From positions 1 through 25,048 of IMG/VR virus record IMGVR_UViG_3300035661_000314: a stretch of DNA of 25,048 nucleotides. One strand, written 5' to 3'. The notes beneath the pieces were generated by a model. It had not been told where the DNA came from and did no database searches. It worked only from the letters and a program-made list of their open reading frames with translations. This document shows, piece after piece, positions 4,918 through 22,952 of this stretch (position 1 is the stretch's first letter; every line of letters starts with the position of its first letter). A program made the translations under genes and the position numbers. Source of the DNA: a virus.

Positions 4918-5576
4918 TGACTATAGTGCTAATAACAGATGCATGTAACACACCCACACCTAACAAAGAATATATTAGGGCTGCGTCATTACTCGGAGAC
5001 GAAGCAGCCATCAAATCGTTTGAGATAATCGACACAGAGCTTCTGAGTGATTTGGATATTAGCGTCAATGCTGCATTAATAGGTGTGACAACCGAAGAAG
5101 CATTGGAGATGTTTATGCGACTCAACAAATCTGAAAAAATTGTTATAACTAGACTTAAGGATACTATGAGTAGTGACTTTGAAATAATCAAATTGGCAAA
5201 TGATTATAATGTTAACGCTGCATGGTTTGTTAACAATAAACAAGCAGACATAGCATGGGTATTGTATGACAGTTCAACTAAGAATTTTTCGATATTAGAT
5301 ACCACGGCTACTGCAAAAGACTCAAAAAATGTAGTACTGGTCCCAGGCCAATGGACAACTATGCAACGTTCAACCACCGGTAAAGAAATGCTATTAGTTC
5401 TCGGCGGCAATGCATCTGTATATACTATAGATGCTAGCAGTGACTTAGAATTACATGGACGATACCAATCACTAGAACATACTATAATACCAACAAACTT
5501 TTGGTATCAGATTACTAATGAAGGTGTAACACCTGCTACTATTACCGTTACTAGTCATGACTTATCACACATATAA
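4917..5576 (+). CDS. unrecognised 219-aa protein between primase and helicase, cupin-like C-terminus
   Basis: The ATG shares a base with the primase stop (TAATG). The N-terminal about 120 residues look alpha/beta: an initial strand MTIVLITDA, an acidic helical region, and a second strand KIVITRLKD. The C-terminal about 80 residues (VVLVPGQW, EMLLVLGGNASVYTI, TIIPTNFWYQITNEG, ATITVTSHD) follow the strand pattern of a small cupin/RmlC-like beta barrel, but the metal-binding histidines are not evident, so this is only a weak structural resemblance. Its place between the two fork enzymes suggests co-expression with replication genes. I cannot assign a function. Confidence 0.72.
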   Translation: MTIVLITDACNTPTPNKEYIRAASLLGDEAAIKSFEIIDTELLSDLDISVNAALIGVTTEEALEMFMRLNKSEKIVITRLKDTMSSDFEIIKLANDYNVNAAWFVNNKQADIAWVLYDSSTKNFSILDTTATAKDSKNVVLVPGQWTTMQRSTTGKEMLLVLGGNASVYTIDASSDLELHGRYQSLEHTIIPTNFWYQITNEGVTPATITVTSHDLSHI

Positions 5577-5621: not shown

Positions 5622-7031
5622 ATGGCTCAAGAAGAATACGAAAATAGCAACGATTACGGTGAAGATAAACAGAAACTCTTGATAGACATTCTATTGAGTA
5701 GTGAAGAAGTATTTTCACGTTGCCAAAACATACTAAATGCATCACATTTTATAAACAAATTCAGACCTGCAATGCGATTCATATTGAAATATGCAGATGA
5801 ATTTAAAGTGTTGCCTAAGATAGAACATGTTAATGCAGAAACTGGTTCACACTTTACTCACATTGACAATATATCAATCCAACATCAAGATAGTTTCCTA
5901 AAAGAGATTGAAAGCTTTAGTAAGAATAAAGCATTAGCTAATGCTGTATATGATGCAGTGGAACTTATCGACAAAGGCAATTACGGAGAAGTTGAGAAGA
6001 GAGTTAGAGAAGCAATTCTCATAAGCTTACAAAGTGATCTTGGTACTAACTACTTTGACGATCCGCGAGCACGATTGTTGGCTATTAAAGATGGCAACGG
6101 ACAAGTTAGTACAGGTTGGAAAGCGGTAGACGAAAAACTCTATGGTGGTATAAACAGGGGTGAGATTACTATTTGGGTAGCAGGGTCGGGTGTTGGTAAG
6201 AGTTTGTTCTTACAAAATCAAGCATTGAATTTAGTTAAGCAAGGTCTTAACGTTGTTTACATATCACTGGAGCTTAGTGAAGGTTTAACATCTATGAGAA
6301 TGGACAGTATGTTAACTGAGTTTGGTACTCGTGACATATTTCGTAATTTGGATGCAGTTGAGATTAAAGTAAAGCAGTCACAACGTAAGTCGGGTGACTT
6401 GTATGTTAAGCAGATACCACAGGGTAGTACGTGTAATGATATAAAAGTGTATCTTAAGAATTATGAAATAGAACGTCAACGACGTCCAGATGTATTGATT
6501 GTGGACTATCTTGATCTTGTGTTCCCTAACAACAAGAAGATTAATCCAAGTGATTTGTTTATTAAGGACAAATTTGTTACTGAGGAAATGCGTGGCATTG
6601 GTGTTGAATACAAGATGATAGTGTTAACTGCATCACAATTGAATCGTAGCGCTATTCAAGAACAAGAACACGATCATAGTATGATTGCAGGTGGTATTAG
6701 TAAGATTCAAACAGCTGACAACGTGATCAGTATTTTTGCGAGTACAGCTATGAAAGAACGTGGACAATATCAAGTGCAATTCTTAAAAACAAGATCTAGC
6801 AGCGGTGTTGGTAGTAAGGTGTATCTTGGATTTGATCCAAATACATTGCGCATATTTGATTTAGATGAGGATGCATCTATAGTTGCAGCGGGAATGAGTG
6901 GGGCCGATGTATTTACAGACTTAAGACGTAAGAATTCAGCTAATGCTAAACTAGATTCCACTAATGTAACTGATCAACAGGCTAAGCCGGCCACAGATCT
7001 GAGTAACCTACGCAATCTAATTAGGCGTTAA
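5622..7031 (+). CDS. T4 gp41-like replicative DNA helicase (DnaB family)
   Basis: ATP-driven hexameric helicase that unwinds DNA at the phage fork and binds the primase encoded upstream. The ribosome binding site GAGGAA is at 5614-5619. Residues 1-145 match the position of the DnaB-type N-terminal domain. The RecA-like core has Walker A GSGVGKS with K193 (base 6198), the strand VVYISLELSEG, and Walker B VLIVDYLDLV with D290 and D295, then TASQLNRS (the sensor-type H3 region) and a KTRSSS segment near the arginine-finger position. Length 469 aa agrees with T4 gp41 (475). The C-terminal 50 residues are a polar tail. Its stop overlaps the stop of the convergent 7028 gene. Confidence 0.93.
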   Translation: MAQEEYENSNDYGEDKQKLLIDILLSSEEVFSRCQNILNASHFINKFRPAMRFILKYADEFKVLPKIEHVNAETGSHFTHIDNISIQHQDSFLKEIESFSKNKALANAVYDAVELIDKGNYGEVEKRVREAILISLQSDLGTNYFDDPRARLLAIKDGNGQVSTGWKAVDEKLYGGINRGEITIWVAGSGVGKSLFLQNQALNLVKQGLNVVYISLELSEGLTSMRMDSMLTEFGTRDIFRNLDAVEIKVKQSQRKSGDLYVKQIPQGSTCNDIKVYLKNYEIERQRRPDVLIVDYLDLVFPNNKKINPSDLFIKDKFVTEEMRGIGVEYKMIVLTASQLNRSAIQEQEHDHSMIAGGISKIQTADNVISIFASTAMKERGQYQVQFLKTRSSSGVGSKVYLGFDPNTLRIFDLDEDASIVAAGMSGADVFTDLRRKNSANAKLDSTNVTDQQAKPATDLSNLRNLIRR

Positions 7032-7501
7032 TTTGCTTTATGAATAGCCCTGAGTTTTGTTAAGATTCGGCTAGTTGTGCTAGCATCAGCAGCTAATAGC
7101 TTATCAAATGCTATTGCAAGTTCACGAACTTGTGCTGAATTTGACGGCATTTTGCCTGCTTTAAGTGAATTGAATGCAGCATTGAATGTCTTTACATTCG
7201 TTAGTCCTAAGTCTTTAGCAAGTGTTTGGATGCTTATTCCGCCAGTTAAACGTTCTGGCTTCTTCTCTTGAGTCATTAAATCTGTAGCAGATTGATCAAC
7301 TGCTTCTGTATCTGCAGGTCCGTCGGTTCCTTCTGCTTCTGGTGCAGCGTCAGCTTCATCTGGAACAGGGCTACCGTCTGGCACTTCTTCACCGTCTGCA
7401 CCACCGGTTTCGGTAGCATCATCATGTAGATCTTCGTCAGCAATCTCTGCCAATCGTTGCGCTATTTTGCGGAAATCTTCTGCCAAGAATCTGTTGTTCA
7501 T
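7028..7501 (-). CDS. acidic 157-aa protein with prohead-protease-like N-terminus
   Basis: The ATG at 7501 is preceded on the minus strand by AAGGTG. The protein has three parts: a short amphipathic N-terminal helix (MNNRFLAEDFRKIAQRLAEI), a low-complexity acidic Asp/Glu/Pro/Ala linker at about residues 23-75, and a C-terminal helical domain (LAKDLGLTNVKTFNAAF onward). LAE at residues 6-8 fits the [L/I]-x-E site of T4-type prohead proteases, so a scaffold or internal head protein is possible, but I do not recognise the family. A late-type box lies upstream inside the 7529-7560 palindrome. Its stop codon overlaps the helicase stop on the other strand. Confidence 0.72.
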   Translation of the reverse strand: MNNRFLAEDFRKIAQRLAEIADEDLHDDATETGGADGEEVPDGSPVPDEADAAPEAEGTDGPADTEAVDQSATDLMTQEKKPERLTGGISIQTLAKDLGLTNVKTFNAAFNSLKAGKMPSNSAQVRELAIAFDKLLAADASTTSRILTKLRAIHKAN

Positions 7502-7528
7502 TGCTACACCTTGTATTACTATTGTTAG

Positions 7529-7560
7529 TATTTAGTCTGATGGACAGTTTAGACTAAATA
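7529..7560. promoter_or_regulatory. palindromic divergent late-promoter pair
   Basis: A perfect 10-base inverted repeat, TATTTAGTCT at 7529-7538 and AGACTAAATA at 7551-7560, with a 12-base spacer. Each arm ends in a CTAAATA box resembling the late promoter on its own outward strand, aimed at the 7501 gene (minus) and the 7592 gene (plus). It could also act as an operator. The boxes match 6 of 8 late-consensus bases. Confidence 0.5.
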
Positions 7561-7591
7561 TCACATAACTATTAGCTTAGGACAATGAACT

Positions 7592-7837
7592 GTGACTAAT
7601 TTAAAGAACTTTTTAGATGAATTGGACAATATTATTCCCGCTAAGAGTAAGCACAGTATTGTTGAGAGCCGTGCCACTCATATCATAGCTAGTACTGTAA
7701 ATTTGGTACATCTTATCAAAGAAAGCTATTCGGAAGAAGAAGCAAAGGATCTAATTAAGCGTCTCTATCGTAGTATAATGACAGAGGATGATCGCAAGTT
7801 TACCCGTAAGATACGAGAACTAAAAGGTAAGAAATGA
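7592..7837 (+). CDS. unrecognised 81-aa protein
   Basis: The GTG start follows TTAGGA (7578-7582 region) at a suitable distance; the ATG at 7585 opens only a four-codon frame. The product is mostly helical with a basic C-terminus (DDRKFTRKIRELKGKK). An IVES motif near residue 24 and the FLDELDNI N-terminus are reminiscent of small T4-like head-associated proteins, but no family is recognised. The stop overlaps the ATG of the following gene (ATGA at 7834-7837), so the two are coupled. Expression probably comes from the plus-strand box at 7554-7560. Confidence 0.7.
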   Translation: MTNLKNFLDELDNIIPAKSKHSIVESRATHIIASTVNLVHLIKESYSEEEAKDLIKRLYRSIMTEDDRKFTRKIRELKGKK

Positions 7838-8424
7838 AGTATAAAGATCTCACAGAATCAAATTCAGATCTTATAACTGAAGCAGGACAATTGCTATCTA
7901 TAGCAAATTGGTTTAAAGATAAGTACGGCTCTGTATTAAAGCGCATCGGTGAGAAAGAAACTAAGAGTTTCGTAAATCAACATCAACGTTTCTTTTTACG
8001 TTGGATGGGTAGATTCCGTGCAGAATGGTCAACTATTACAATGAATGTCGTATATCAATATATGCATTCTGTAAACAAACTATCAGATATGGATATCGTC
8101 GACGTAGTTAATAAAGTTCTTAAAGAACCAGAGACCGCCGGAGACCAACTAACAATTGCACAGATTCGTGATCATGATAGATCATTGTTAGTAAGCAGTT
8201 TAAGTAAAGTTCCTAAATCGAATCAAGGACAAATTATAACAGAGAAAATGATTGCGTCAGGGTCAATGCGCCAATTAGAACAACATTGGTCACAACAGGC
8301 ATCTGCACAATACGGACGTAAATCTGTTAAAAGTGCAGGCAGCGGTTATAAGACACAAAGCGGTCCACCTGTTGCTAGAACTGCTGAAATAGATTCTGCT
8401 ATTAGCCAATTGGAAAAATTATAA
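7834..8424 (+). CDS. 196-aa candidate internal head protein
   Basis: The start overlaps the previous stop (ATGA), and the stop shares a base with the next ATG (TAATG). The N-terminus MKYKDLTESNSDLITEAGQL has two [L/I]-x-E sites (LTE at 6-8, ITE at 14-16), closely resembling the capsid-targeting leader of T4 internal proteins that the prohead protease removes. The rest is helical with many basic and aromatic residues (FFLRWMGRFRAEW) and a Gly/Ser/Gln-rich loop near the C-terminus. It does not resemble a named enzyme. A role inside the capsid is inferred from the leader and from the neighbouring genes with similar leaders. Confidence 0.72.
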   Translation: MKYKDLTESNSDLITEAGQLLSIANWFKDKYGSVLKRIGEKETKSFVNQHQRFFLRWMGRFRAEWSTITMNVVYQYMHSVNKLSDMDIVDVVNKVLKEPETAGDQLTIAQIRDHDRSLLVSSLSKVPKSNQGQIITEKMIASGSMRQLEQHWSQQASAQYGRKSVKSAGSGYKTQSGPPVARTAEIDSAISQLEKL

Positions 8425-9074
8425 TGAGATTGAATAATATCAAGCCATTGACCGAAGCAGACCTAAATGATAAGAAGGTTGCCAGAATATTGCAGAATAT
8501 AGCTGACGGTATAGAAGCCTCTGCTAAAGGTTCTATAGTAGGAACAGTAAGTAATGCATACAAGAGTCTTGTTGGCAAGAATCCGGAAGGTATTTGGAAA
8601 AAAGCCGGTAGTCCTATTGAGAGCAATGCGATATACTCTGTTATGATTAAAGCAGGAATACCACAAGACATTGTCAACAAAGCCTTTAAAGTTTCACGTA
8701 TACAATACGGGACCAATGCCGCACCAACGAAAACCGACGTCGGTGTTATAAGTACTGGTAATATTGCACTAGATGCATTTGTCAATGATTTGGTTTCTAA
8801 GTATGGTAAAGAATATGCTATTCAATATCTTCAAAATTTGAAACGTTCGAAACCTAGTACAAAGTCTACAGCACAATCACAAAATGCTGGCAAGAATCAA
8901 ATTGCATATAAGGCATCAGATGGCCAGACATATAAGTTGAGTGTTGGTAAGATGGGCGATCGTCTTTGGGTTAATGCACAGACGGGTGCAGAAGCATCTG
9001 ACGAGATTGATCAAGAATTGGAAAAGGCAGAAGCTGCTAAAGCGGCGGCGCCCCGTAAAGTTTTAGGACTATAA
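8424..9074 (+). CDS. 216-aa candidate internal head protein
   Basis: Coupled to the upstream gene by TAATG. The leader MRLNNIKPLTEADLND contains LTE at residues 9-11 followed by Ala, a good match to the T4 prohead-protease site. The middle is helical and Lys/Ala/Gly-rich; a beta segment at about residues 160-190 (YKASDGQTYKLSVGKMGDRLW) is followed by a charged Glu/Ala-rich helix and a short tail. I do not recognise a family. The organisation (cleavable leader, basic body) is what T4-like encapsidated proteins show, so packaging is inferred but unproven. Confidence 0.72.
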   Translation: MRLNNIKPLTEADLNDKKVARILQNIADGIEASAKGSIVGTVSNAYKSLVGKNPEGIWKKAGSPIESNAIYSVMIKAGIPQDIVNKAFKVSRIQYGTNAAPTKTDVGVISTGNIALDAFVNDLVSKYGKEYAIQYLQNLKRSKPSTKSTAQSQNAGKNQIAYKASDGQTYKLSVGKMGDRLWVNAQTGAEASDEIDQELEKAEAAKAAAPRKVLGL

Positions 9075-9077
9075 CAC

Positions 9078-10403
9078 ATGCGATTGCAAGACATATCGTC
9101 ACCGCGTATACTGACAGAATCTAAAGCCAGAATAGATCATCCTGAGGATTTAGTATTCATGGATGGTATAGCAGGTGCACAACGGGCATTGAATGCCATG
9201 TTGTCTTTGGCAAATGATCCATCTAATGTGACTGTTAAATTTGATGGTAGCCCCAGTCTTATATTTGGATGGGATGCAGATGGTTTTGTATTAACTGATA
9301 AGAGTGGATTCAACTCTAAGAAATATGATGGCATGCCACGAAGCACAGAAGCTGTGAACGCAATGCTAGCCGGTGATACTGGCAGACGTCTAACAGATAC
9401 AACCCCAGAAGGGTTGAAGAAGAGACAGGTATATGCTAGTGGCATAGCGGCCTTATACGAATTGTTGAAGTCTATAGTTCCTAAGACAACAGTTGGATAT
9501 ATTCAAGGCGATCTGTTATGGCAAGGTACACCGCCGATAGTTGATGGCAAATATGTATTTGGTCCTGTGAAGATACATTATAAGGTTCCAACTAACAGTG
9601 ACCTCGGCAAGAATATTGCAGTAAGTAAGGCTGGTATAGTAATACATAGTATCTTTAAGAGTCGTGCAGATATGGAACCACGTACTATAAATGACATTAC
9701 TAAATTAAATCTAATTCACAATCCACAGATTGTAGTTGTACCTCATAAAATGAAAGCAACAGAACAACTAACATTGCCAACAGACATTGTTGCATCTGTA
9801 AAGAACTTAATCGAAAAGCACGGCGCCGAAATAACATCATTCTTAAATGATAGTGTTAAGTCATTGCCAGCATTATTAAAATCATTTGCTGCGTATAAAG
9901 CTAGTACTGGTAATAGTAACTATGACAATGCCGGCGAAGAATTTGTTACATGGTTGGGCACCGACAGTGCTAGCATAAAGATGCAATCTAGCATACGGGT
10001 GCATATTAGCAGTAATAGCACAGGTTATGCAGCATTGTGGAAATTAATTCAAACTCTAACACAACTTAAATTGAATCTCAAATCACAATTAGATAACAGG
10101 ACACAGAGTGTTGTTGCCGCAGAATATGGACATAATGCCCATAAAACATTGCACGGTAAACGCGGACACGAAGGTTTTGTCGCTGACACACAATATGGTA
10201 AGATAAAGCTAGTTAATCGTCATGAATATATGCATAAGCCTCAAGCTGAAATAGCTGAGAATGCAAGTGCAGGCGGAACATCGGCTGGCGGTATTGCAAG
10301 TGTAGCTAATCCTGTGGGACCAACTATAAGTAGAACTCCGAACCTCTTTGGTTATGTCCCTGTAAAGCGTAAAAAGACCAAGAAGAAACCAAGCGTAAAG
10401 TGA
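9078..10403 (+). CDS. DUF6267-like protein with KxDG nucleotidyltransferase signature
   Basis: The ATG follows AGGA at 9065-9068 with a 9-base spacing. The body resembles the phage family DUF6267 (from memory, not searched): GIAGAQRALNAML at 30-42, then VKFDGSPSLIFG with K54-F-D-G57. KxDG is motif I of the DNA/RNA ligase and capping nucleotidyltransferase superfamily, where Lys takes the AMP or GMP. Later segments could be motifs III to V: GYIQGDLLW (140-148), GPVKIHYKV (162-170) and KAGIVIHS (184-191). The leader MRLQDISSPRILTES has LTE at 12-14. The C-terminus is a Gly/Ser linker and a very basic tail (KRKKTKKKPSVK). A packaged adenylyl- or RNA-ligase-like enzyme is possible; activity is inference. 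Confidence 0.75.
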   Translation: MRLQDISSPRILTESKARIDHPEDLVFMDGIAGAQRALNAMLSLANDPSNVTVKFDGSPSLIFGWDADGFVLTDKSGFNSKKYDGMPRSTEAVNAMLAGDTGRRLTDTTPEGLKKRQVYASGIAALYELLKSIVPKTTVGYIQGDLLWQGTPPIVDGKYVFGPVKIHYKVPTNSDLGKNIAVSKAGIVIHSIFKSRADMEPRTINDITKLNLIHNPQIVVVPHKMKATEQLTLPTDIVASVKNLIEKHGAEITSFLNDSVKSLPALLKSFAAYKASTGNSNYDNAGEEFVTWLGTDSASIKMQSSIRVHISSNSTGYAALWKLIQTLTQLKLNLKSQLDNRTQSVVAAEYGHNAHKTLHGKRGHEGFVADTQYGKIKLVNRHEYMHKPQAEIAENASAGGTSAGGIASVANPVGPTISRTPNLFGYVPVKRKKTKKKPSVK

Positions 10404-10422
10404 GTAATTTTTACATTCTGGC

Positions 10423-10429
10423 ATAAATA
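10423..10429 (+). promoter_or_regulatory. T4-type late promoter box
   Basis: ATAAATA within GCATAAATAAC. The predicted transcription start near 10435 leaves a leader of about 33 bases that includes the GGAGA ribosome binding site of the 10468 gene. Confidence 0.6.
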
Positions 10430-10467
10430 ACACGCAAAACAATTTTGCATTTTATGGAGAATTAAAA

Positions 10468-11208
10468 ATGGCAAATAAAGTAAACGGAAATGCTCGCGCT
10501 GGCGAGTTTCTTTCTGGCAATATGGACTTTTATAGCATAGCTACAATCGTTCCAGTAGCACAGACAAACGTTGACGTACCAGTAGTTGACCTTCCAGGTT
10601 ATGCTAACTATGTTAACTTGGGTTCATGGACTACAGTAACAGTTGTTAACGGTGCAGGCACAGCAGTAGACTATGCAACACTTAACGCATACCTCGATGC
10701 TTTCTATCAGCAACGTAACTTGGATAAGTTGGTTTCTTGCTTCGCAGCTCGTGCTAACCCAGTTGCTATCAGTGTTAAGACACTTGCTTCAAGCATCAAC
10801 GGTGCTGCAATCAATGCTAACACAAGTGCATATTTTGCTCAGGCAGGATACACTAACTCAGCTGGCAGCCACGTATTTGGTTCAAGCTTCACAACAGGCA
10901 AGACTATTTCTATCGTTAACATTGCGACAGAAAAGTCAGGTTTGTGGGTAGCTGCAGGTGCTGGTGACAACGTCACTGGTTACAGCTTGCTATCAGCTAA
11001 CTCAACAGCAGGTGGTCTACACTTGCTAGCTGCATACGACACACAGAGCGCCCAGGTATTTGGCGACAGTACATCAACAGCATCTGATGCTTGGACTGTT
11101 AAGAACACTGTAGCTCCTTACGTTAATGCATTTGATACTAGTGCTGCTTCAACAGGCAACACAATGCTTGTTTCTGGAGCTGCTCTAGGCGCAACAACAT
11201 TGGCTTAA
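10468..11208 (+). CDS. abundant virion structural protein, 246 aa, candidate
   Basis: This is the only gene in the window with all three: a late promoter (10423-10429), a strong ribosome binding site (TGGAGA at 10455-10460) and its own rho-independent terminator (11232-11263). That arrangement suggests high-level late expression as a single gene. The protein is rich in Ala, Thr, Ser, Asn, Gly and Val with few charged residues, and shows alternating beta segments (TIVPVAQTNVDVPVVDL, SIVNIATEKSGLWVAAG), like a structural or decoration protein. The N-terminus MANKVNGNARAGEFLSGNMD is reminiscent of virion proteins of T4-like cyanophages, as a recollection only. It carries no signal peptide or enzyme motif. 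Whether it belongs to head, neck or tail cannot be read from the sequence. Confidence 0.75.
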   Translation: MANKVNGNARAGEFLSGNMDFYSIATIVPVAQTNVDVPVVDLPGYANYVNLGSWTTVTVVNGAGTAVDYATLNAYLDAFYQQRNLDKLVSCFAARANPVAISVKTLASSINGAAINANTSAYFAQAGYTNSAGSHVFGSSFTTGKTISIVNIATEKSGLWVAAGAGDNVTGYSLLSANSTAGGLHLLAAYDTQSAQVFGDSTSTASDAWTVKNTVAPYVNAFDTSAASTGNTMLVSGAALGATTLA

Positions 11209-11231
11209 TAGGCTAATATATACTACTAAAG

Positions 11232-11263
11232 AAAAGGGTGCCATGTGCACCCTTTTTGTTTTG
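11232..11263 (+). terminator. rho-independent terminator
   Basis: The 10-base arm AAAAGGGTGC (11232-11241) and its exact complement GCACCCTTTT (11247-11256) enclose a 5-base loop and run into TTTTTGTTTTG. It directly follows the 10468 gene and precedes a new late promoter, so it isolates that gene. Confidence 0.9.
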
Positions 11264-11271
11264 ATACTATG

Positions 11272-11279
11272 TATAAATA
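11272..11279 (+). promoter_or_regulatory. perfect T4-type late promoter box
   Basis: TATAAATA exactly. By the T4 geometry transcription would start about six bases further on, at 11285, which is the A of the next gene's ATG. Confidence 0.65.
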
Positions 11280-11284
11280 TTACC

Positions 11285-11449
11285 ATGAGCAATAAATCAC
11301 AAATAAAAGACATGTTTGAAAACATTGGTATAAAACTTAAGTTTGTTCGAAAGAATGGAAAACTTAAAATTGAACAATGCACAGGTGATGCACAATCTGA
11401 CGAACATGTTCCTCATCCAATGTTTCCAATTAGTAAGGTACGAAAATGA
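11285..11449 (+). CDS. unrecognised 54-aa protein
   Basis: The frame is open from an ATG at 11243, but that codon lies in the loop of the terminator hairpin and before the promoter at 11272, so the ATG at 11285 (MSNKSQIKDMFENIGIKL) is the likely start. No ribosome binding site precedes it, and the predicted transcript starts at this codon, so initiation may be leaderless; the ATG at 11312 is an alternative. The product is a small basic protein with alternating KLKFVRKNGKLKIEQ strands. Its stop overlaps the next ATG (ATGA), which supports it as a real coupled gene. Function unknown. Confidence 0.65.
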   Translation: MSNKSQIKDMFENIGIKLKFVRKNGKLKIEQCTGDAQSDEHVPHPMFPISKVRK

Positions 11450-12219
11450 AAAGCCTTACAGATTATATTGATAAATTAACTATGACAGATTCTGACAATA
11501 TCACGGAGGATGATGCAATGAAGAAACTACGACGTTATGCACAGGTAGACTTAGTTGGCAATGAAGGATTATACGATACAGAGATTGATAGATGGAGCAG
11601 AAATGCTAAGCATCCATTGAGTAAAGTAGAATTGTTATCAGCAAATGATCTACCAAATTTCACACAAGGCGATATAGCAATGTTTGAAGGCAAGGAAGTA
11701 GAAGTACGTATTCCTCAAGGCCCTAAGCAAACAACAGGTATTATGTTAGAAGGACATCTCACTATGGTTAAGACAACAAAACTAGATAAGATAGAAGAAG
11801 GCGTTATGGGCGGTGTCCGCACAATGACTCCTATTAATAGAATCATGCAACTTGCAGGATTGGAACATGGTACATCTGTTATAGCAGAACCCACTGTTGC
11901 AGAATCAGAAGAAGACACAGAATCGGAAGTTGTTGCTGAGGAAACACTAGAAGAAGATAACAACATAGCAACAGCGTTCTCAAAATTAGTAACGTCAGCG
12001 CCGCTACCGTACAATGCACCTGGTAATGAAGAAGCTGCTAGACTGTATGTTATGGGTGGCATCATAAGTGCAATAGCAAAAGACTTACAAACAAGTCCAT
12101 TGCAATCACCTACTGCAATAAACAGTACTCATACACTTAATTCATTGGCGCCGATGGGTGCAGCTCTATTGCAGACTGCTCAGACATTAGCAAATAAGAA
12201 ACCAGGTACACCGCAGTGA
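11446..12219 (+). CDS. 257-aa protein with prohead-protease-like leader
   Basis: The start overlaps the preceding stop (ATGA), and the end overlaps the following GTG start (GTGA). The N-terminus MKSLTDYIDKLTMTDSDNIT is followed by Glu-Asp, giving an ITE site at residues 19-21. A compact central domain follows (SKVELLSANDLPNFTQGDIAMF, hydrophobic VEVRIPQG), then an acidic low-complexity stretch at about 145-172 (EEDTESEVVAEETLEEDNN), and a helical C-terminus with an Ala/Gly-rich segment. No family is recognised. The leader and acidic linker resemble the other candidate internal or scaffold proteins here. Confidence 0.72.
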   Translation: MKSLTDYIDKLTMTDSDNITEDDAMKKLRRYAQVDLVGNEGLYDTEIDRWSRNAKHPLSKVELLSANDLPNFTQGDIAMFEGKEVEVRIPQGPKQTTGIMLEGHLTMVKTTKLDKIEEGVMGGVRTMTPINRIMQLAGLEHGTSVIAEPTVAESEEDTESEVVAEETLEEDNNIATAFSKLVTSAPLPYNAPGNEEAARLYVMGGIISAIAKDLQTSPLQSPTAINSTHTLNSLAPMGAALLQTAQTLANKKPGTPQ

Positions 12220-12443
12220 AATTTATAGAGATACGTGGCGGTATGCAAGTGCCGATTAGTAATGACGAACAGCTTGTTTTAGAAAAGATAAAACAATCTG
12301 CAGAACCATTGCCAAAACGTATACTGAATTTGCGGGAACAAGAATTAGCCCGTCAATTAGTGCATAGAAGCGTAATAGATCGTATAGTAATTGATGAACA
12401 AATATGCTTCATCTATAACGAACTAGATGATATATGGAGTTAA
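12216..12443 (+). CDS. small conserved-type T4-like phage protein, 75 aa
   Basis: The GTG start overlaps the previous stop (GTGA at 12216-12219). The sequence MKFIEIRGGMQVPISNDEQL followed by a helical Arg/Glu/Leu-rich middle (LREQELARQLVHRSVIDR) and a strand pair ending YNELDDIWS looks like a winged-helix-sized domain; small proteins of this shape are found in T4-like phages, though I recall no characterised function. The region REQELARQLV is a plausible recognition or dimer helix. It is followed after three bases by the 12447 gene and shares its operon. Confidence 0.7.
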   Translation: MKFIEIRGGMQVPISNDEQLVLEKIKQSAEPLPKRILNLREQELARQLVHRSVIDRIVIDEQICFIYNELDDIWS

Positions 12444-12446
12444 ACA

Positions 12447-13106
12447 ATGGCAGTGACACCAGAAGATACAAATGCAATGAAACGATTACTAGAAATGATG
12501 GAAGGAAAATCTCCATCATCGCCACCGGTTTCATACGGTAGTAATCAATCTGGTGCACCTGTTGAATTGGCAGGTGCCGGACAAGTCACGTCCCGTGATA
12601 TCGGTGCTATGGCAGATGTCCTCAAGAAACTAAACAACGTAACAAATTCTGTATTACGTGAGAGCGAATCTGATCAACAGTTAGGCAATGCTGTTAATAC
12701 ACAACGTAATGCTAAAGGTGTTAAGGTTGGCAATTATCAGATTATGGTTAAAGAAGATGCCACACGAATTGCTGGTAAACAATATTACAGCATATATCAC
12801 ACAAAGACTGAAGACGTAATTGCGGATGATGTTAGTTTGTATGAGACAGCACTAGAGGTCGTTAAGAGACTAAATTCTGGTAAGTTTGTAAATGATCCGT
12901 CTATTTTAAAATTATTCGAAGCAGACGATCACTACACTTCACACAGAACTGATGCAATACGCTTTAAAGCACGTATGAATAATGCTAACAAGGTAGGCGA
13001 TGTTGCCAAGCATGACATATATGAAAGTAGATACCAAGCGAGTATCGCAACAGCTATGAATCATAAGCGTGAAATCAAAAATATTATTACCGGTAATACA
13101 AGATGA
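12447..13106 (+). CDS. unrecognised 219-aa protein, virion-type
   Basis: A GGAG site lies just upstream of the ATG at 12447. The N-terminal half is a flexible Ser/Pro/Gly-rich region with a helix (EDTNAMKRLLEMMEG) and a second helix (MADVLKKLNNVTNSVLRES). The middle has a beta segment (VKVGNYQIMVKED, KQYYSIYHTKTEDVIADDV) and the C-terminus is a basic helical array (AIRFKARMNNANKVGDVAKH). This order of parts looks like proteins seen in T4-like phage structural clusters, but I cannot name a family. The stop overlaps the next start (ATGA). Confidence 0.72.
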   Translation: MAVTPEDTNAMKRLLEMMEGKSPSSPPVSYGSNQSGAPVELAGAGQVTSRDIGAMADVLKKLNNVTNSVLRESESDQQLGNAVNTQRNAKGVKVGNYQIMVKEDATRIAGKQYYSIYHTKTEDVIADDVSLYETALEVVKRLNSGKFVNDPSILKLFEADDHYTSHRTDAIRFKARMNNANKVGDVAKHDIYESRYQASIATAMNHKREIKNIITGNTR

Positions 13107-13438
13107 AGCTATCCGAAGTACAATTATTACCAAGCATCAGCCGAAGCGATAAAGAAGGTAGTGTCACATTCAACGACAACGTCAAACTTTACAAGAATGG
13201 TGTGCGTAATAGATATGATGATAGCGTGTATGAATTCAAGACTATAGCAACAACAAAGAATCATACAATCGTGTCTGATGTTGACGACGATGGCGGTGCG
13301 TATATAGCAGTGAATACAACCACCCATCTGACAGATATGGTTGTATATGGTGATATCCGTAAACGAGCAGCAGGTTGGAAAAACGTTCTATATAGATACG
13401 TTGAACGGACGAACAAACAGTACTTTAAAAGCATATGA
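13103..13438 (+). CDS. 5' part of a frameshifted gene (reads on into 13700)
   Basis: The ATG overlaps the previous stop. The first about 92 residues (MKLSEVQLLPSI, then FNDNVKLYKNG and GGAYIAVNTTTHLTDMVVYG) read as one domain up to AAGWK at about 13376-13381. After that the frame gives an unconvincing basic tail to 13438, while the frame one base on (ending 13700) continues a smooth sequence: WKTFYIDTLNGRTNSTLKAY. Dropping one A from the run of five at 13379-13383 joins them into a protein of about 198 aa. The joined product resembles the N-acetyltransferase-like layout of some T4-like phage proteins. The function itself is not recognised. Confidence 0.6.
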   Translation: MKLSEVQLLPSISRSDKEGSVTFNDNVKLYKNGVRNRYDDSVYEFKTIATTKNHTIVSDVDDDGGAYIAVNTTTHLTDMVVYGDIRKRAAGWKNVLYRYVERTNKQYFKSI

Positions 13439-13700
13439 ATTTTATAGAACAATATTGTTAAAAACAAATGTAATTTTTGTTACAGATTCGCAGAGCTATG
13501 GCGGATTGCGAACATGGCAAGAATTAGCAAAATACAAAGATATAACTGTATTTGGTTGGTCAAACGGGAAACCAGTTAATGTAACTCCGGCTGAACCGGA
13601 GGATACGCACATTACTACAGGTGAAATTCTTAGCAATCCCGAACCAGGTGATGTAGATATTTTAAAAATGAAATTAGTCGCCCATCGTAAGGTGAAATGA
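13341..13700 (+). CDS. 3' part of the frameshifted gene
   Basis: This frame is meaningful from about 13380 (KTFYIDTLNGRTNSTLKAYE) to the stop at 13700; the codons between 13341 (a TTG) and 13380 lie in the other frame of the 13103 gene and have no ribosome binding site. The segment LKAYEFYRTILLKTNVIFVT, then DSQSYGGLRTWQELAKYKDI, then TVFGWSNGKPVNV resembles the GNAT-like C-terminal half I associate with several phage proteins (VSD-S-GG-W-L pattern). It most likely continues the 13103 gene rather than being independent. It is followed one base later by the IscA-like gene. Confidence 0.6.
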   Translation: MYMVISVNEQQVGKTFYIDTLNGRTNSTLKAYEFYRTILLKTNVIFVTDSQSYGGLRTWQELAKYKDITVFGWSNGKPVNVTPAEPEDTHITTGEILSNPEPGDVDILKMKLVAHRKVK

Positions 13701-13701
13701 T

Positions 13702-14010
13702 ATGATAATCACAAAAGAAGCAGAATTACGGTTTAAGCAACTAATAATAGATGATAAGCTACCGAGAGTTGAGATAATAGCAGGTGGTTGTAAAGGTTTT
13801 GAGAAGAAGGTCGCATTGGATACTGTTGAAACAGATGATATCCAAATACAACTTAGCAACGGTGCTACTATAATTATGGATCCTATAACCCACAAAATGC
13901 TAGCTAACAGTATCATAGATTTCAAAACAAGCATCTCTAGCAGTATGTTTCACATAGATATACCCGAAGCAATAAGCACTTGTGGATGCGGAACTAGTTT
14001 TACTTTCTGA
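13702..14010 (+). CDS. IscA/HesB-family A-type Fe-S cluster carrier
   Basis: The ATG starts one base after the preceding stop. The 102-aa product shows the three cysteines of the family: C30 (AGGCKGF) and C94-G-C96 near the end (STCGCGTSFTF), with the spacing of A-type carriers such as IscA, ErpA and HesB. Such proteins receive and pass on 2Fe-2S or 4Fe-4S clusters to client enzymes. The SxCGCGxSF tail is well kept, so metal binding is probably intact. HesB-like genes are known from T4-like cyanophages. It closes a run of coupled small genes and is followed by the late promoter of the next block. The client protein is not evident here. Confidence 0.85.
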   Translation: MIITKEAELRFKQLIIDDKLPRVEIIAGGCKGFEKKVALDTVETDDIQIQLSNGATIIMDPITHKMLANSIIDFKTSISSSMFHIDIPEAISTCGCGTSFTF

Positions 14011-14033
14011 TAACAACTACCCGCCTCAGCTAA

Positions 14034-14040
14034 ATAAATA
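14034..14040 (+). promoter_or_regulatory. T4-type late promoter box
   Basis: ATAAATA within GCTAAATAAATATC, in the 77-base gap before the 14088 gene. The predicted start near 14046 gives a leader of about 42 bases carrying the GAGGAA ribosome binding site. Confidence 0.6.
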
Positions 14041-14087
14041 TCAATAAGCAACACTATCGCACGACCTAACTAGTTGAGGAATCAAGT

Positions 14088-15491
14088 ATGTATATTAACA
14101 ATTTTAATAATAGCAATGAATATAGATTGCAGCAGGTATTACATACCCTTAAGAATGTATATGGTGCAGAATTGGCGCTAGATAAGCAATCAGACGATGA
14201 TCTGGTGTCATTAAGCCAAAGTAGTGAAATTGTTAAGAACAGTATCATAAGCGAAAGTCGCTTTAATACATACAATTCAAATCCAGAATATGCAAAGCAT
14301 ATGTTGATTATGGAAGCAGTTAGATTATACCTAACAGAAATAGCTCCAAAACGCGCACCTAAGCGCAAGATTAAAGAAAGCACAGAACGTGATACTAACG
14401 ACCTTGTTAAATTGGGTCGTGAGATGATGGCATATAGTGCAAAAACTAATCACGGTGGCAACGAACGAGAACTTAGCATTCTTAATGCTATTAGTAAGGT
14501 TGGTGATAAGTTAACACAAATGGGCGAACCGTTTGGTCCAAAAGGTTTAACAGATACAGATAAGAAGATTCTAATAATTGCAAAGCGTAGATTAGGCTTA
14601 ATAGCCCCAGCACAAGGCGATCAAGATTCTATGCAAGGTTTGGCAGAAGGTCGTACAGATGCAGAACTTGAACAAGCAATTAATAAGCATGATACAATGC
14701 GTACGAGACACGAAGATCAATCTATATATTGGGGCAATAAAGAAGGTAAAGCTACGCACCCTGGTGCCCAACAACAATACTTTGATAAGTCTATACAGCA
14801 TAAAGAAGCAGCAGAAAAGCATGAGAAGGCCGGCAAGGTTGCAGCAGATATGTTGGCATCGCGTCAGACAAAATTAAACGAAATATCAAAAGAAACATTG
14901 GGTTCATATATTAGTCGGGCTGCTGATGATGCAGTTGATCACAGTCACTTAGCAACAATAAAAAGTAGTTCACCTAAGTTCTCAGATAACAAAGAAGCAA
15001 ACGCACATAGCATCCGCCACTTCAATAGAATTGAAGGTATTAAGAAAGCAACTAGTAGACTAGTAAATGGTCATGTCAACGAAGCAGACGATAATGACGA
15101 TGCTATGTTGCAGAGAATAAAGAACGAGTTAGCTTCGATTGAAGCAGAACTTAATAGCATTATACAAGACGATGATGTTGCGTTAGATGAAATGATGGGC
15201 AAAGGTAAAATACCAGCCGCCGTTAGACATCACCAATCGGCATACAATACCCATGCTAAAGCATTTAGAACACATTCAGAGAGAGCAGACGAGTTAGAAG
15301 ATACTGGTGGCTTTGAAGATGCTATCGAGAAGCATGAAGATCTAGCAAAAGACAGTCATTTCAGAATGATGAGAAGTGATGCTAGGGTTGCACATGCACG
15401 TGGCTTACTTGACAAAGTAGAAGCTAATAAAAAGCTTAAGGCAGCTAATGATCAAATACGAGTAGCTAAATTAGATAAGAAGGATTGGTAA
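14088..15491 (+). CDS. 467-aa virion-type protein with repeated His-rich helices
   Basis: GAGGAA at 14075-14080 precedes the ATG. The N-terminal about 100 residues (including YAKHMLIMEAVRLYLTEIAP, followed by basic KRAPKRKIKE) form one helical domain with LTE at about 82-84. The remainder holds three degenerate, helical, His/Lys/Ala-rich units at about 190-250, 267-325 and 370-440; the second begins LNEISKETLGSYISRAADDA, a motif I know from many T4-like phage proteins. Each unit looks like a helical hairpin ending in an Ala-rich helix. No enzymatic motif is present. The stop shares a base with the next start (TAATG). A virion or internal head protein is likely; the exact function is unknown. 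Confidence 0.75.
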   Translation: MYINNFNNSNEYRLQQVLHTLKNVYGAELALDKQSDDDLVSLSQSSEIVKNSIISESRFNTYNSNPEYAKHMLIMEAVRLYLTEIAPKRAPKRKIKESTERDTNDLVKLGREMMAYSAKTNHGGNERELSILNAISKVGDKLTQMGEPFGPKGLTDTDKKILIIAKRRLGLIAPAQGDQDSMQGLAEGRTDAELEQAINKHDTMRTRHEDQSIYWGNKEGKATHPGAQQQYFDKSIQHKEAAEKHEKAGKVAADMLASRQTKLNEISKETLGSYISRAADDAVDHSHLATIKSSSPKFSDNKEANAHSIRHFNRIEGIKKATSRLVNGHVNEADDNDDAMLQRIKNELASIEAELNSIIQDDDVALDEMMGKGKIPAAVRHHQSAYNTHAKAFRTHSERADELEDTGGFEDAIEKHEDLAKDSHFRMMRSDARVAHARGLLDKVEANKKLKAANDQIRVAKLDKKDW

Positions 15492-18268
15492 TGTCAGAGA
15501 TTAAACGGGCTAGAGATATTTTAAATAACGTCGGGAAGGAATTGCCGGCTGCTAAGTCAGCTATTTCGGAGGACTTTAATCCTGCACAAACACCGCCACC
15601 GGGACAGGCAATAGCACCCGTTGCACCAGTTCAACCAGTTACTGCCGGAACACAACAACCTAAGCCAGGTGACCCTCAAACAAAGCCAACTCCCGGTATG
15701 GTCACTGTACAAAAAGGTACAGTTAAGAAGACAATACCAGCTGCACAACTTGCAACATATCAGAAGCAAGGTTACACAGTAGTTTCTGATAGCGCAATTA
15801 AAGAAGATTGGGGTAGCAGCGATTGGTATCCAATTCTTACAGGCATGGATAAGTATATTGCTGAACACGGATTTACACCAGAGAATGTTGCAGAAGTAGC
15901 AAAAGAAATGGCAGAACGTTATAACGAACATATGGGATATGACGATATAGAAGATTGTACTGACAGAATTGTTCACCGTTGGTTGATGCATAAGGGTTAT
16001 AAGAAGCCTACAGACACACTATCAGAATCAGTGGATGACGATGGATATCATTCTAACATGGCAAGAAGTGAACTATTCCGTAACACAAAGTATGCCACTG
16101 AAATGACAAAGATGTTACATGCAGATGATGACATCGAACCACTGATTGCAAAATCGTTGGATAAGGCTGTCGAATACTTAAAAGATGTCTCGTCACAGTT
16201 AGAAGGCTCAACCGATATTGTTCCTATGGATATGGACAGTGAAGACGAAGAAATTGCCGATGACGAAGATGATTCAACTATCTCACTTGATTCGGTTAAT
16301 GAAGCATTATCTGACATAGTACATTATAGCACTAGTTTGTTTAGTTCTATTCAACCAGGTGACAAGTTGCCGGGTTGGGTAACAATGAAACTAACAAAGG
16401 CTAGCGAATGTGTCAGCAGTAGTAAGCACTATTTAGAATATACACAATTTGAAAAACACGCCGGCGATATGCTAGGTGATATACAGAAAATGGCTACAGA
16501 AGGAGCTAAAATGAGTAAGAAACCAGTTCGCGAAAGTGTTGGCCAGAAGTTAGCACGTATGATGATGACAGAGGATCAAGATTTGCAGCAAGCGCAAACA
16601 TTGACCGCTGCTAAAGCATTAAGTGATGATTTGCAAAGCATGGCAGAAAAAGTTGCACGTATGAGTGTAGAAGATTTGATGCCATTGGTAGATACAATGA
16701 AGGATCAATTCGGACAAGAAGCTGCCGAAGGATACAATTCGGCAATGAAAGAAGGTTTAACTGCATTGCTTGATACTGTAACAAAGGCTAAAGAAACAAG
16801 CGACAATGCAATACATGTATTGCAGGGTGGTGAACCAATGGCAACAGATGCAAATGCAGAACAAGATTTGTCTGCAGAACTTCCTGCAGGTCCAGAAGAT
16901 GCAGACTTAGATGCTGCGGCACCAACAGGTGAAGAGCCGATGGGCGACGAAGAAGCAAATCTCCCTTTAGGACGTGAAAAAAAGGATGATGCTGAACTAA
17001 GTGAATCAAAATCAGGACGTCGTCCAAAGAAAGAAAACTTTCTTAAGGCTGGTACTGTAATATTTGAATCTGCTCCAGCAGGTAAGAAGGCAGAAGACTT
17101 TATTAAAGGTAACAAGGCTTCTTTTAAAGAGCGTTATGGCAAGAAGGGTGAAGAAGTCCTTTATCGTACAGCTTGGAAGAAGTTCGGCGCTAAGAATGAG
17201 AACTACGTAAAAGCAGAAGCAATGTTAGAGACTAACAAGAAAGCACTTGCGCAATTGAACAAGATGTTCGAATCTCACAAGGCAAAGTATTCTAAGATGC
17301 TTAAGGAAGGTAAAGTCGACGATCCGTTGAATATGGGTTATGGCTTAGAAGGCGAAAACATATTAGACAGAATTGTTAAGACAACAACACGAATCACTAA
17401 GCTTAAGGAAGCATTGATGCGTGATATTACTGCCGGCGCAACACGTATTATTATGAGTGAACAGGCCTCTACTAAAGCTGCTAAGTTAACAGCGGCAAAG
17501 TCTGCTGCACCATACGGCGTATTGTTCAAGGACACGGATGGTACAAAGCAGCGTAAGTTTTTCGAAAGTGCAAAACTCCGTGGCATGTGGATGGACCTTA
17601 ATACAAAAAGCTTGAACGAGCATGTATTGGTAAACCCAGAAGACTTTGATACTCAGATCAATAAGTTGAATGAAACAACCGCTCAGAAGATGGCTAACCG
17701 ACTAATGTCTACTGGTAGCATGGATCGCAGCCCTGGTGATAAAGTTCTTAATAAGAACATAAAGAAGTGGACAGAAAAGATTGCCGATCTCGAGGTAGAT
17801 AAGACTAGCAAGGCAGCCAATGCAGATCAAATTAATAATTTGAAGAAGATGATTGCAGACGCAAAAAAAAAATTAAATAAAAAGCCTGTAGAAGAAGCAG
17901 CCAAGAAGGATGATAAGAAGCCAGTTGGCGAATACTATGCAGAATTCGACAAAGCTGATGGTCTCTGGTGTGTATTCAACACAGACGATGTTGGCAAGAA
18001 GAAGAGCGGACATTGCTTCGGTGCCCATAGCACAAAGGCACAAGCCGACGATGATGCTAAGAAGCGTAATGATGCAACATCTAAGAAAATAAACGAATCT
18101 AAGACAGAAGCTGGACTTAAGGACAATGAACCACGTAAAGTGAGTGGTGTGAAAGGTGCAAAGTCTACACCATTTACTAAGAAGTTTAAGAACAGTGCAG
18201 CAATGGATAAGTGGATGGATTCAGACGAAGCCGGCGACTACACAGTCGACACAATAGAACGTTGCTAA
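15491..18268 (+). CDS. 925-aa multidomain virion-type protein
   Basis: The frame opens at a TTG (15485), but the ATG at 15491 has AAGGA at the right distance and couples to the previous stop. The leader ends with ISE (26-28) followed by Asp. Proline-rich linkers join blocks: SESVDDDGYHSNMARSELFR (a motif I have seen in T4-like phage proteins), an acidic segment, then LQQAQTLTAAKALSDDLQSM with a following helical domain that resembles T4-like head proteins. A basic block, KSGRRPKKENFLKAG, follows. Internal LSE, MTE and LNE sites recur. From residue 791 a run of 10 A (17863-17872) separates a C-terminal domain with YYAEFDKADGLWCVFNTDD. It is the largest protein here; no enzyme motif was recognised. 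Confidence 0.75.
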   Translation: MSEIKRARDILNNVGKELPAAKSAISEDFNPAQTPPPGQAIAPVAPVQPVTAGTQQPKPGDPQTKPTPGMVTVQKGTVKKTIPAAQLATYQKQGYTVVSDSAIKEDWGSSDWYPILTGMDKYIAEHGFTPENVAEVAKEMAERYNEHMGYDDIEDCTDRIVHRWLMHKGYKKPTDTLSESVDDDGYHSNMARSELFRNTKYATEMTKMLHADDDIEPLIAKSLDKAVEYLKDVSSQLEGSTDIVPMDMDSEDEEIADDEDDSTISLDSVNEALSDIVHYSTSLFSSIQPGDKLPGWVTMKLTKASECVSSSKHYLEYTQFEKHAGDMLGDIQKMATEGAKMSKKPVRESVGQKLARMMMTEDQDLQQAQTLTAAKALSDDLQSMAEKVARMSVEDLMPLVDTMKDQFGQEAAEGYNSAMKEGLTALLDTVTKAKETSDNAIHVLQGGEPMATDANAEQDLSAELPAGPEDADLDAAAPTGEEPMGDEEANLPLGREKKDDAELSESKSGRRPKKENFLKAGTVIFESAPAGKKAEDFIKGNKASFKERYGKKGEEVLYRTAWKKFGAKNENYVKAEAMLETNKKALAQLNKMFESHKAKYSKMLKEGKVDDPLNMGYGLEGENILDRIVKTTTRITKLKEALMRDITAGATRIIMSEQASTKAAKLTAAKSAAPYGVLFKDTDGTKQRKFFESAKLRGMWMDLNTKSLNEHVLVNPEDFDTQINKLNETTAQKMANRLMSTGSMDRSPGDKVLNKNIKKWTEKIADLEVDKTSKAANADQINNLKKMIADAKKKLNKKPVEEAAKKDDKKPVGEYYAEFDKADGLWCVFNTDDVGKKKSGHCFGAHSTKAQADDDAKKRNDATSKKINESKTEAGLKDNEPRKVSGVKGAKSTPFTKKFKNSAAMDKWMDSDEAGDYTVDTIERC
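17863..17872 (+). repeat. A10 homopolymer inside the 925-aa gene
   Basis: Ten consecutive A form the end of GCA plus three AAA codons (Ala791, Lys792-794). Loss of one A gives a TAA after codon 794, and gain of one gives a TAA after codon 796. Runs of this length are known sites of polymerase slippage, so the site could yield a protein about 130 residues shorter. Confidence 0.6.
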
Positions 18269-18288: not shown

Positions 18289-18639
18289 ATGCGTTATGCA
18301 GATCTTACATCGTTACCAGGAACAACCGAGGAGGCTAAAAACAGCATCCTCGACCTGGTGGCTATATATGCAAGTAAGAATAAAACTGAAATACCAATGA
18401 AGGTTGTTCTTGCTATATTGCATGACCAAGGGTATGATATGACACCTAAGATGATCATTGACATTGTTACAGGTAATAGCAGTGTTAAGGATACTACAAC
18501 CGATATGATTACACTTAAAGGTGCAGATGATGCCGGACTTGACGTCGAGGGCGCAGAAGATCAAGTCAACAAAGATAAAGAAAAAAATCAAAAGCATGTT
18601 GAGAAACTAGCACAAAAAGCAGCAAGGAAGCGTCAATAA
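18289..18639 (+). CDS. unrecognised 116-aa helical protein
   Basis: AAGGA at 18277-18281 precedes the ATG. The first 65 residues form a compact helical domain (LDLVAIYASKN, VVLAILHDQGYDM, TPKMIIDIV) and the C-terminal 40 residues are a highly charged Lys/Glu/Ala coil (NKDKEKNQKHVEKLAQKAA). The leader MRYADLTSLPG resembles those of neighbouring candidate capsid-targeted proteins but lacks a strict [L/I]-x-E site. The charged tail contains a run of seven A. The stop shares a base with the next start (TAATG). Function unknown. Confidence 0.7.
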   Translation: MRYADLTSLPGTTEEAKNSILDLVAIYASKNKTEIPMKVVLAILHDQGYDMTPKMIIDIVTGNSSVKDTTTDMITLKGADDAGLDVEGAEDQVNKDKEKNQKHVEKLAQKAARKRQ

Positions 18640-22230: not shown

Positions 22231-22593
22231 TTAGCTTGCATTAATACTTTGTAGAATAGCATCAAGTTCTGGCCACGCCACTCCGACCGATTTAATGGCG
22301 CTGCAACATTGATTTATTTTGGTTCTACCATAATTAGCTCCATTGTCGCCCATGGCACCATAATAAAGGGTTAGTTGCAATATTACTTTTATTATCAAAT
22401 TTTTATATTTGTCTATATTAGCTTCGAGCCAATCGCGGTTATTCGGCTTTAATAGAGTATCCAACGGCTCATAATAATTAGGAATTTTACTTGCCATAGC
22501 TGCTATGCATTTCTCGGGAGTTTTATTTGCAACAAATTTTAATACGTTGCCGTCTTGTTTTAGTGCTGTTAAACATACATCAAGTGTTTGCAT
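22231..22593 (-). CDS. 3' part of frameshifted DUF4116 gene
   Basis: This minus-strand frame begins with two further DUF4116 units (MQTLDVCLTALKQDG, then KTPEKCIAAMASK) and continues into a different C-terminal domain of about 80 residues (YYEPLDTLLKPNNRDWLEAN and later SAIKSVGVAWPELDAILQSI). No ribosome binding site is expected at the ATG, because the sequence just upstream already encodes the preceding DUF4116 unit in this same frame. The upstream part lies in the 22580 frame, one base off at the T9 run 22619-22627. The non-repeat C-terminus is not found in the other DUF4116 proteins of the window. Function unknown. Confidence 0.65.
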   Translation of the reverse strand: MQTLDVCLTALKQDGNVLKFVANKTPEKCIAAMASKIPNYYEPLDTLLKPNNRDWLEANIDKYKNLIIKVILQLTLYYGAMGDNGANYGRTKINQCCSAIKSVGVAWPELDAILQSINAS

Positions 22594-22882: not shown

Positions 22883-22908
22883 ATATGATATCACTAAATC
22901 GCATCTAT

Positions 22909-22915
22909 TATTTAT
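22909..22915 (-). promoter_or_regulatory. T4-type late promoter box
   Basis: Minus-strand ATAAATA within AATAAATAATAG. It sets the likely start of the DUF4116 gene at 22882. A TATAAAGA on the plus strand (22921-22928) lies back-to-back with it. Confidence 0.5.
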
Positions 22916-22952
22916 TGCAGTATAAAGATAGACATCAACGATGATGCACATG

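Follow-up and report, generated by a model that had tools for sequence, protein, structure and literature searches.

The DNA analysed here is a virus fragment of 25,048 bases (IMG/VR record IMGVR_UViG_3300035661_000314), which we call the window throughout. It carries genes for a primase, a DnaB-type helicase and an exonuclease, and between them lies a block whose genes have few matches in databases; for most of these the Pfam scan returned little. From the letters alone, an earlier note had pointed to seven short N-terminal leaders ending in [L/I]xE and had suggested that much of the block encodes proteins packaged in the capsid. We describe here these leaders, the sites at which they may be cut and the proteins that carry them. 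Genes are named by their lowest coordinate in the window, strands are given as + or −, and a slash in a sequence marks a predicted cut.

Used directly as queries, the window 9078 and 15491 proteins yielded no or few close relatives. The family of relatives was reached instead through the helicase, which is 47–79% identical to its counterparts in 42 other viral contigs. Related records among these helicase-bearing contigs include G001 (155,688 bases), G005 (216,498 bases) and G004 (518,643 bases). Profiles of the window families matched GAP32, a Cronobacter isolate and RaK2-like jumbo phage, in collinear order (284, primase 285, helicase 286, 287, 291, 292, 293, 294 and exonuclease 295). The window represents part of a jumbo phage of T4 type, with RaK2/GAP32 among its relatives.

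The DUF6267 protein and other leader-bearing genes

The 9078 protein is made of a leader (9078–9119, +), MRLQDISSPRILTE/, ending at LTE-14, a DUF6267 domain (9120–10259, +; Pfam PF19782, 4e-29), for which we propose a KxDG ligase-like nucleotidyltransferase fold, and a C-terminal peptide described further below. The LTE-14 site was retained in 8/8 aligned rows and across the wider DUF6267 family. For the latter we took the best 80 of 451 relatives in viral contigs, of which 73 had a usable domain anchor; the other loci (7/80) were dropped for want of an anchor; their profile match began in a fused upstream region. Clustering at 60% identity over the last 25 residues gave 40 clusters. We observed [LIVM]xE at most 13 residues before the anchor in 37/40 clusters, against a background of 11.6% of same-domain windows (P ∼2e-31). 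With other residues in place of Glu at P1 the counts among the 40 clusters were 1 for Asp, 5 for Lys, 1 for Gln, 3 for Asn and 3 for Arg. The residue following the site was A, G or S in 33/37, and the distance from site to anchor was 5–6 residues, likewise in 33/37.

The regions upstream of this site vary. Among 66 distinct DUF6267 N-termini, 29 were short leaders (<30 residues), such as MRFYEFKQINTKPLVE/ADARIQH, and 23 of the 29 began with M[KR]xx[DE][FIL]. About a third had some 220–330 residues fused upstream with the site at the joint, and one such fused piece gave a weak match to a Polbeta nucleotidyltransferase (E 0.036). Sites of this kind, inside proteins and between fused domains, had been overlooked in the earlier note. 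One locus (L294) owes its leaderless look to the choice of start, an upstream frame there containing the site. Of 14 further homologs (L037 and 13 from named records), 10 were leaderless. The leaderless ones, from cyanophages plus one single-cell record of marine origin, have a Met near the junction (MAKNTHLEHLED or similar). The leader-bearing homologs have LAE (Stenotrophomonas phage DLP6), LVE (Pelagibacter phage HTVC008M), ITE (Methylophilales phage Melnitz) and LME (L037) at the same junction. Since the leaderless homologs start with Met at the junction, the DUF6267 fold needs no leader, and a cut there would give a start nearly as in the leaderless proteins. In S-WAM1 (L006 9173–10228), the annotated cytidyltransferase adjoining DUF6267 begins MRFRQFIIE/AAAAAAKK; the leader is therefore on the neighbour where DUF6267 itself is leaderless.

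These arrangements bear on the idea that the leader and its Glu serve the fold or translation, as a helix start or as start-codon context, and mark no protease site. Several start codons in the window overlap or abut the preceding stop, so that the N-termini are under coupling constraints, and some sites of the 15491 protein fall in predicted helices. The site, however, is missing from the leaderless homologs and persists where a fused domain replaces the leader, and the 9078 leader is disordered in the structural model. We consider this explanation extremely unlikely.

In the model of the 9078 protein (mean pLDDT 72), residues 1–15 and 387–441 are mostly disordered, so that the folded core would span almost exactly between two predicted cuts. 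K54, D56, G57, D145, G186 and K377 were invariant in nine DUF6267 sequences, and K54-x-D-G resembles motif I. Nearly all of the 50 best rows of structural matches were RNA or DNA ligases, with Z ≤6.5; the best Foldseek E was 0.049, and no relevant sequence match to 9078 was found in the PDB. Because the fold match is weak, ligase activity of DUF6267 is put forward as a proposal. We found no open-licence paper on DUF6267.

All seven [L/I]xE motifs listed in the earlier note exist where it placed them, and for most of the genes conservation supports a site. The 196-aa protein (7834–8424, +) begins MKYKDLTE/SNSDLITE/A (LTE-8, ITE-16); the Glu of ITE-16 was aligned in 4/4 rows, with P3 being I, I, L and L and an M[KR] start in 4/4. 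For the 216-aa protein (8424–9074, +; MRLNNIKPLTE/AD, LTE-11), the site was retained, though it is internal in the longer homologs of L010 (QLDE/AD) and L015/G005 (NLSE/VD), relatives having several hundred extra residues upstream of it. The 157-aa acidic protein (7028–7501, −) has LAE-8 and LAE-19 in its N-terminal leader. Its relatives have [LIV]xE/A at about residues 17–25, and the conserved column, matching [LIVM]xE[SANGTD] in 10/13 rows, lies later than LAE-8; the window protein has Asp in this column and LAE three residues upstream. A conserved site near the N-terminus thus stands for this family, but LAE-8, the motif originally named, is not the conserved cut. The 271-aa protein (21376–22191, −; leader MSSFKQAIKKILE/A, ILE-13) has a single ortholog, in G004, with YLKE/A near the matching place, LKE/A there corresponding to ILE/A here. 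A possible leader of the 257-aa protein (11446–12219, +), ending NITE/DD (ITE-21), is weak: the Glu is aligned in part but P3 is not kept. The seventh, ISE-27 of 15491, was wrong, and is treated with that gene below. A further site was found inside the 219-aa protein (12447–13106, +), where VLRE-72/S directly precedes a conserved domain; an internal [LIVM]xE[SN] stands ahead of the conserved part in 9/9 rows.

A second run of genes with leaders occurs in G004 at ∼193926–221437 (loci L091–L093). The leaders include MKANEFINE/S, MRLADLYGDLFE/S, MKLDDIFE/A and MKITELSE/A; one gene of this run has a Polbeta nucleotidyltransferase and another a cytidylyltransferase-like domain.

The multi-site protein and the gp23-like peptide

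The genes at 14088–15491 (+) and 15491–18268 (+) correspond to one gene of 878–1,189 residues in G001, G003, G004 and G005, which is split elsewhere in G006. Their counterpart in GAP32 and CBB (GAP32_293 and CBB_298) is a 215-residue virion protein. As 14088/15491 is a single gene in the relatives, ISE-27 is no leader; we rejected it after the N-terminal stretch of 15491 was found to align inside the longer orthologs. The 15491 protein contains 11 [LIVM]xE[SAGN] sites against 3.9 expected, and the homologs gave 15 against 5.1 (G001), 16 against 4.8 (G004) and 20 against 5.1 (G003), the Asp controls in the family being at or below expectation. A conserved core domain follows one of the sites. 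The model of 15491, with a mean pLDDT of 53.6, has low confidence and shows islands joined by disorder.

We then ranked all proteins of each proteome by site density. In T4 the top four were the genes at 104117, 103023, 103448 and 104945; from the T4 map we take 104117 to be the place of gp22 (scaffold), 103448 the protease and 104945 gp23. The scaffold and the 14088/15491 homolog took the first and second ranks in G005 and G004 and the first and third in G001, and in G003 the homolog ranked first. Controls with D, Q, K, N or R at P1 were nearly silent, and the scan yielded none in SPO1, which is without the S77 protease.

The same density may be read in another way, namely that these are head proteins in which the 14088/15491 motifs mark the wholesale degradation of a second scaffold, with no release of useful modules. 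The site density of 14088/15491 matches that of the scaffold, and passages of PMC9958956 describe T4 gp22, gp67 and gp68 as being cleaved down to small peptides. However, the short homolog CBB_298 was detected in mature virions at 35.8% coverage (virion data of PMC5259590), and a conserved core domain lies behind one of the sites. We regard this as a real possibility, though not the one that we favour.

At its C-terminus the 9078 protein has an arm-like peptide (10260–10400, +; phrog_17311) that follows IAE-394 and reads NASAGGTSAGGIASVANP...LFGY...KRKKTKKK (residues 395–441, NASAGGTSAGGIASVANPVG...RTPNLFGYVPVKRKKTKKK). The peptide is mobile. As a stand-alone gene (65–69 residues, including a leader of its own) it occurs in L020, L022, L024, L028, G002 and G004; it also forms the C-terminal end of the G001 homolog of 7834 and of the L010 homolog of 8424, and in an isolate it is GAP32_288. 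In 38 further contigs it was preceded by Glu in 38/38, a count to which one of the two search patterns contributes by imposing the Glu, and P3 was [LIVM] in 33/38. Some copies stood alone, with leaders that can be as short as MKIRDILE/, and others were placed at the end, or close to the beginning, of larger proteins, the longest having 1,129 residues. A tblastn search with a 67-aa peptide gave nothing in isolates, and GAP32_288 as a query gave 42 records.

A profile of the peptide, built without GAP32, was run over 3,713 proteins. It retrieved the five copies present and then gp23 of GAP32, G004, G007, G001 and G005 (E 9e-4 to 0.011), the next-best protein having E 1.3. The alignment covers 14 residues from the first residue after the predicted gp23 cut, which is ILFE/SATPGATSAGNVAT in G001 (starting SATPG) and MLRE/SATAGATSAGNIAT in GAP32. 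The independent profile phrog_17311 matched the peptide and gp23 alike. The gp23 proteins of T4, S-WAM1, HTVC008M and P-SSM2 were not matched by the peptide profile. Passages of PMC9958956 and PMC7136217 describe residues 66–91 of T4 gp23 as the N-fist, which links adjacent capsomers once the head has expanded and is disordered at positions facing the portal. A tentative and rather doubtful proposal is that the peptide, freed by the protease, follows the N-arms as the head expands and occupies N-fist sites not filled by gp23, such as those at vertices or the portal ring, its basic tail holding DNA or the core; it would be a mobile cement peptide cut out by the head itself. Being liberated by the same protease, it may sit alone or end any core protein. 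Phrog_17311 can be named as a tiny gene family that mimics the mature start of the shell protein. In the open-licence literature we found no description of the peptide or of leaders in this phage group. Small repeat-family proteins in L062 and L058 (G004:265816, G009:1713) contain part of the gp23 N-arm (PF07068 positions 5–42) near their N-terminus, a second sign of traded pieces of the gp23 N-terminal region.

Protease, virion proteins and interpretation

The earlier note had proposed to look for a gp21-like protease elsewhere in the genome. In the related records S77 (PF03420) was present in 4/13, and these are the same four that have a full gp23; a fifth has a gp23 fragment only. In G001 the order is S77 protease, a scaffold-like gene and then gp23. 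Of the eight isolates tested, seven have the S77 protease, the exception being SPO1.

Three small genes of the window have homologs described as virion proteins. The 81-aa protein (7592–7837, +) is a homolog of the virion protein GAP32_287/CBB_292 (E 2.5e-19; phrog_11854), the 75-aa protein (12216–12443, +) of GAP32_291, annotated as a virion structural protein (E 1.7e-7), and the 116-aa protein (18289–18639, +) of the virion protein GAP32_294/CBB_299. In the mass spectrometry of CBB virions listed in Table 4 of PMC5259590, CBB_292 is represented by one unique peptide, CBB_298 by 10 and CBB_299 by two; virion detection extends to these three orthologs and not to DUF6267.

The best reading of these data, to which we assign a probability of roughly 0.8, is a widely expanded form of T4-like capsid targeting and maturation, in which the block encodes prohead core proteins with leaders that are cut in the manner of gp21. 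By analogy with T4, short leaders with the pattern M[RK]xx[ED][FIL]...[LIV]xE would bring the block proteins into the prohead by binding the core, and the protease would act once the shell has closed. The S77 protease of the phage, of gp21 type, would cleave between E and a small residue that follows it. This would remove the leaders, and the same motif would be cut inside the longer proteins and between fused domains. Such a cut would free each module, and it would therefore matter little whether a module is encoded separately, behind a leader, or joined to a neighbour; the fusions and splits among relatives would be seen because cleavage frees the modules either way. For T4 IPIII, passages of PMC9026906 report that the first ten residues suffice for head targeting, that residues 8 and 10 govern cleavage, and that Asp at position 10 blocks cutting with targeting intact. 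At the level of sequence, we have shown support for this reading in the conserved [LIV]xE with a small residue at leader and domain junctions (37/40 clusters for DUF6267, 9/9 for 12447, 10/13 for 7028, and Glu in 38/38 for the peptide), in the occurrence of the protease together with gp23 in relatives, and in the detection of orthologs in the CBB virion.

A contrary view is that [LI]xE is short and common and that the hits were hand-picked from chance occurrences. It agrees with the finding that ISE-27 of 15491 is internal, and with the bare counts. The earlier note had let position near the N-terminus and the small or acidic residue after the motif carry the weight. In the bare counts, [LI]xE occurred at residues 5–30 in 10/33 window proteins, against 9.7±2.4 in shuffles (with the 11446 gene started at 11518 in this count, so that its ITE was missed), in 43/178 proteins of G001 (z 1.2) and in 51/239 of G005 (z 1.7). 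Under a narrower rule, M[KR]xx[DE][FILVYM] with [LIV]xE[ASG] within residues 6–32, the site accompanied the leader start in 20/54 proteins against 113/1480 without it (odds ratio 7.1), in pooled related genomes and with a rule that is partly post hoc; the Asp-for-Glu control gave 1/54. Columns matching [LIVM]x(P1)[SANGTD] were also concentrated on E and within the block. Over 3,282 residues of block families there were 22 conserved columns with E at P1 (some counted twice, because the 14088 and 15491 alignments share members), compared with D 6, K 1, Q 2, R 7 and N 2; over 2,453 residues outside the block there was one with Glu and 10 for the remaining P1 residues together. For DUF6267, chance is refuted by the fixed junction site in 37/40 clusters with silent controls, and for the block as a whole we consider it very unlikely. 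The claim that much of the block encodes capsid-packaged proteins is partly supported, by the conserved leader sites of several families, by S77 in relatives and by the CBB virion orthologs, but not by the bare counts, which are at chance.

Apart from these counts, the post hoc element of the narrower rule and the shared columns, several observations weigh against the best reading. PF03420 gave no match in the window, itself a fragment, and in 16 further contigs with block genes, mostly fragments, S77 was found in just two. The association of leader start and site did not recur in five S77 isolates (2/11, p 0.24) with the regular expression used, which misfits T4's own leader. S-WAM1, HTVC008M and P-SSM2 have S77, and no protein reached P <0.01 there in the density scan. 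The CBB virion table of PMC5259590 does not list CBB_293, 296 and 297, which are the respective homologs of the peptide, of 12216 and of 12447. We had also considered that the 15491 sites might prefer disordered linkers, but this found no support: 7/11 fell in stretches with pLDDT <50 compared with 51% of residues, which is no better than chance.

Most genes in uncultured giant phages are without known function. If T4-like targeting and cutting holds for this group, head cargo could be predicted by a simple and checkable rule for S77-bearing genomes: the products packed in heads would be those in which a leader or a domain junction ends with [LIV]xE and is followed by A, G or S. The ligase-like enzyme would then be a probable cargo, with a possible action on DNA or RNA as infection begins.

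Other genes of the window were noted as follows. Within the structural block, 13702–14010 (+) encodes an iron-sulphur cluster biosynthesis domain (PF01521, 4.1e-7) that is conserved in relatives. The gene at 18639–21122 (+) encodes an 827-aa glycine-rich repeat protein with many structural PHROG matches (head closure, baseplate, virion). The relatives of 4917–5576 (+) have a nucleotidyltransferase-like N-terminal half (GGFDPIHSGH); the window copy aligns to them only in the C-terminal half and is without this motif. DUF4116 repeats (PF13475) were found in the two genes tested, 1539–2546 (+) and 22580–22951 (−), with seven and three stretches, respectively; similar-looking repeats lie at 45–560, 1129–1542 and 22231–22593, and G004 has weak relatives of these repeat genes. 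A 128-aa protein with HExxH (AHELTHF) is encoded at 23644–24030 (−), and in G004 this domain is embedded in a 599-aa protein with a leader-like start.

Comparison with known head-protease systems

The RaK2-like jumbo phages GAP32, CBB and RaK2 have the primase-to-exonuclease gene order in common with the window. In GAP32 the homologs of six window genes (3038, 7592, 12216, 14088, 15491 and 18289) are annotated as virion proteins, and the small peptide gene GAP32_288 is shared with the window group. However, GAP32 has few leaders of the window type, its 215-aa homolog of 14088/15491 stands against ∼1,390 aa in two genes in the window, and DUF6267 was not found in it by profile search.

In the jumbo phages phiKZ (gp175) and SPN3US (gp245), a diverged protease of gp21 type cuts head proteins after Glu. 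Passages of PMC10052503 and PMC5694885 describe cutting by SPN3US gp245 after A-x-E, mostly of long propeptides, and a motif of S-x-E type in phiKZ. The window group, in contrast, has [LIVM]xE, and the protease in its relatives is a direct Pfam S77 match.

The substrates of T4 gp21 (S77), namely IPI–III, Alt, gp22, gp23 and gp24, have leaders of M-K-x-x-x-E-F-x-x-E type and about 10–20 residues, which the head protease removes by cleavage behind [LI]xE, and the T4 scaffold is cut at multiple sites, as predicted for the block in the window. Unlike in T4, leaders in the window group are found on many unrelated proteins, sites are present at the joints of fused enzyme domains as well, and the start of mature gp23 is copied by a free peptide.

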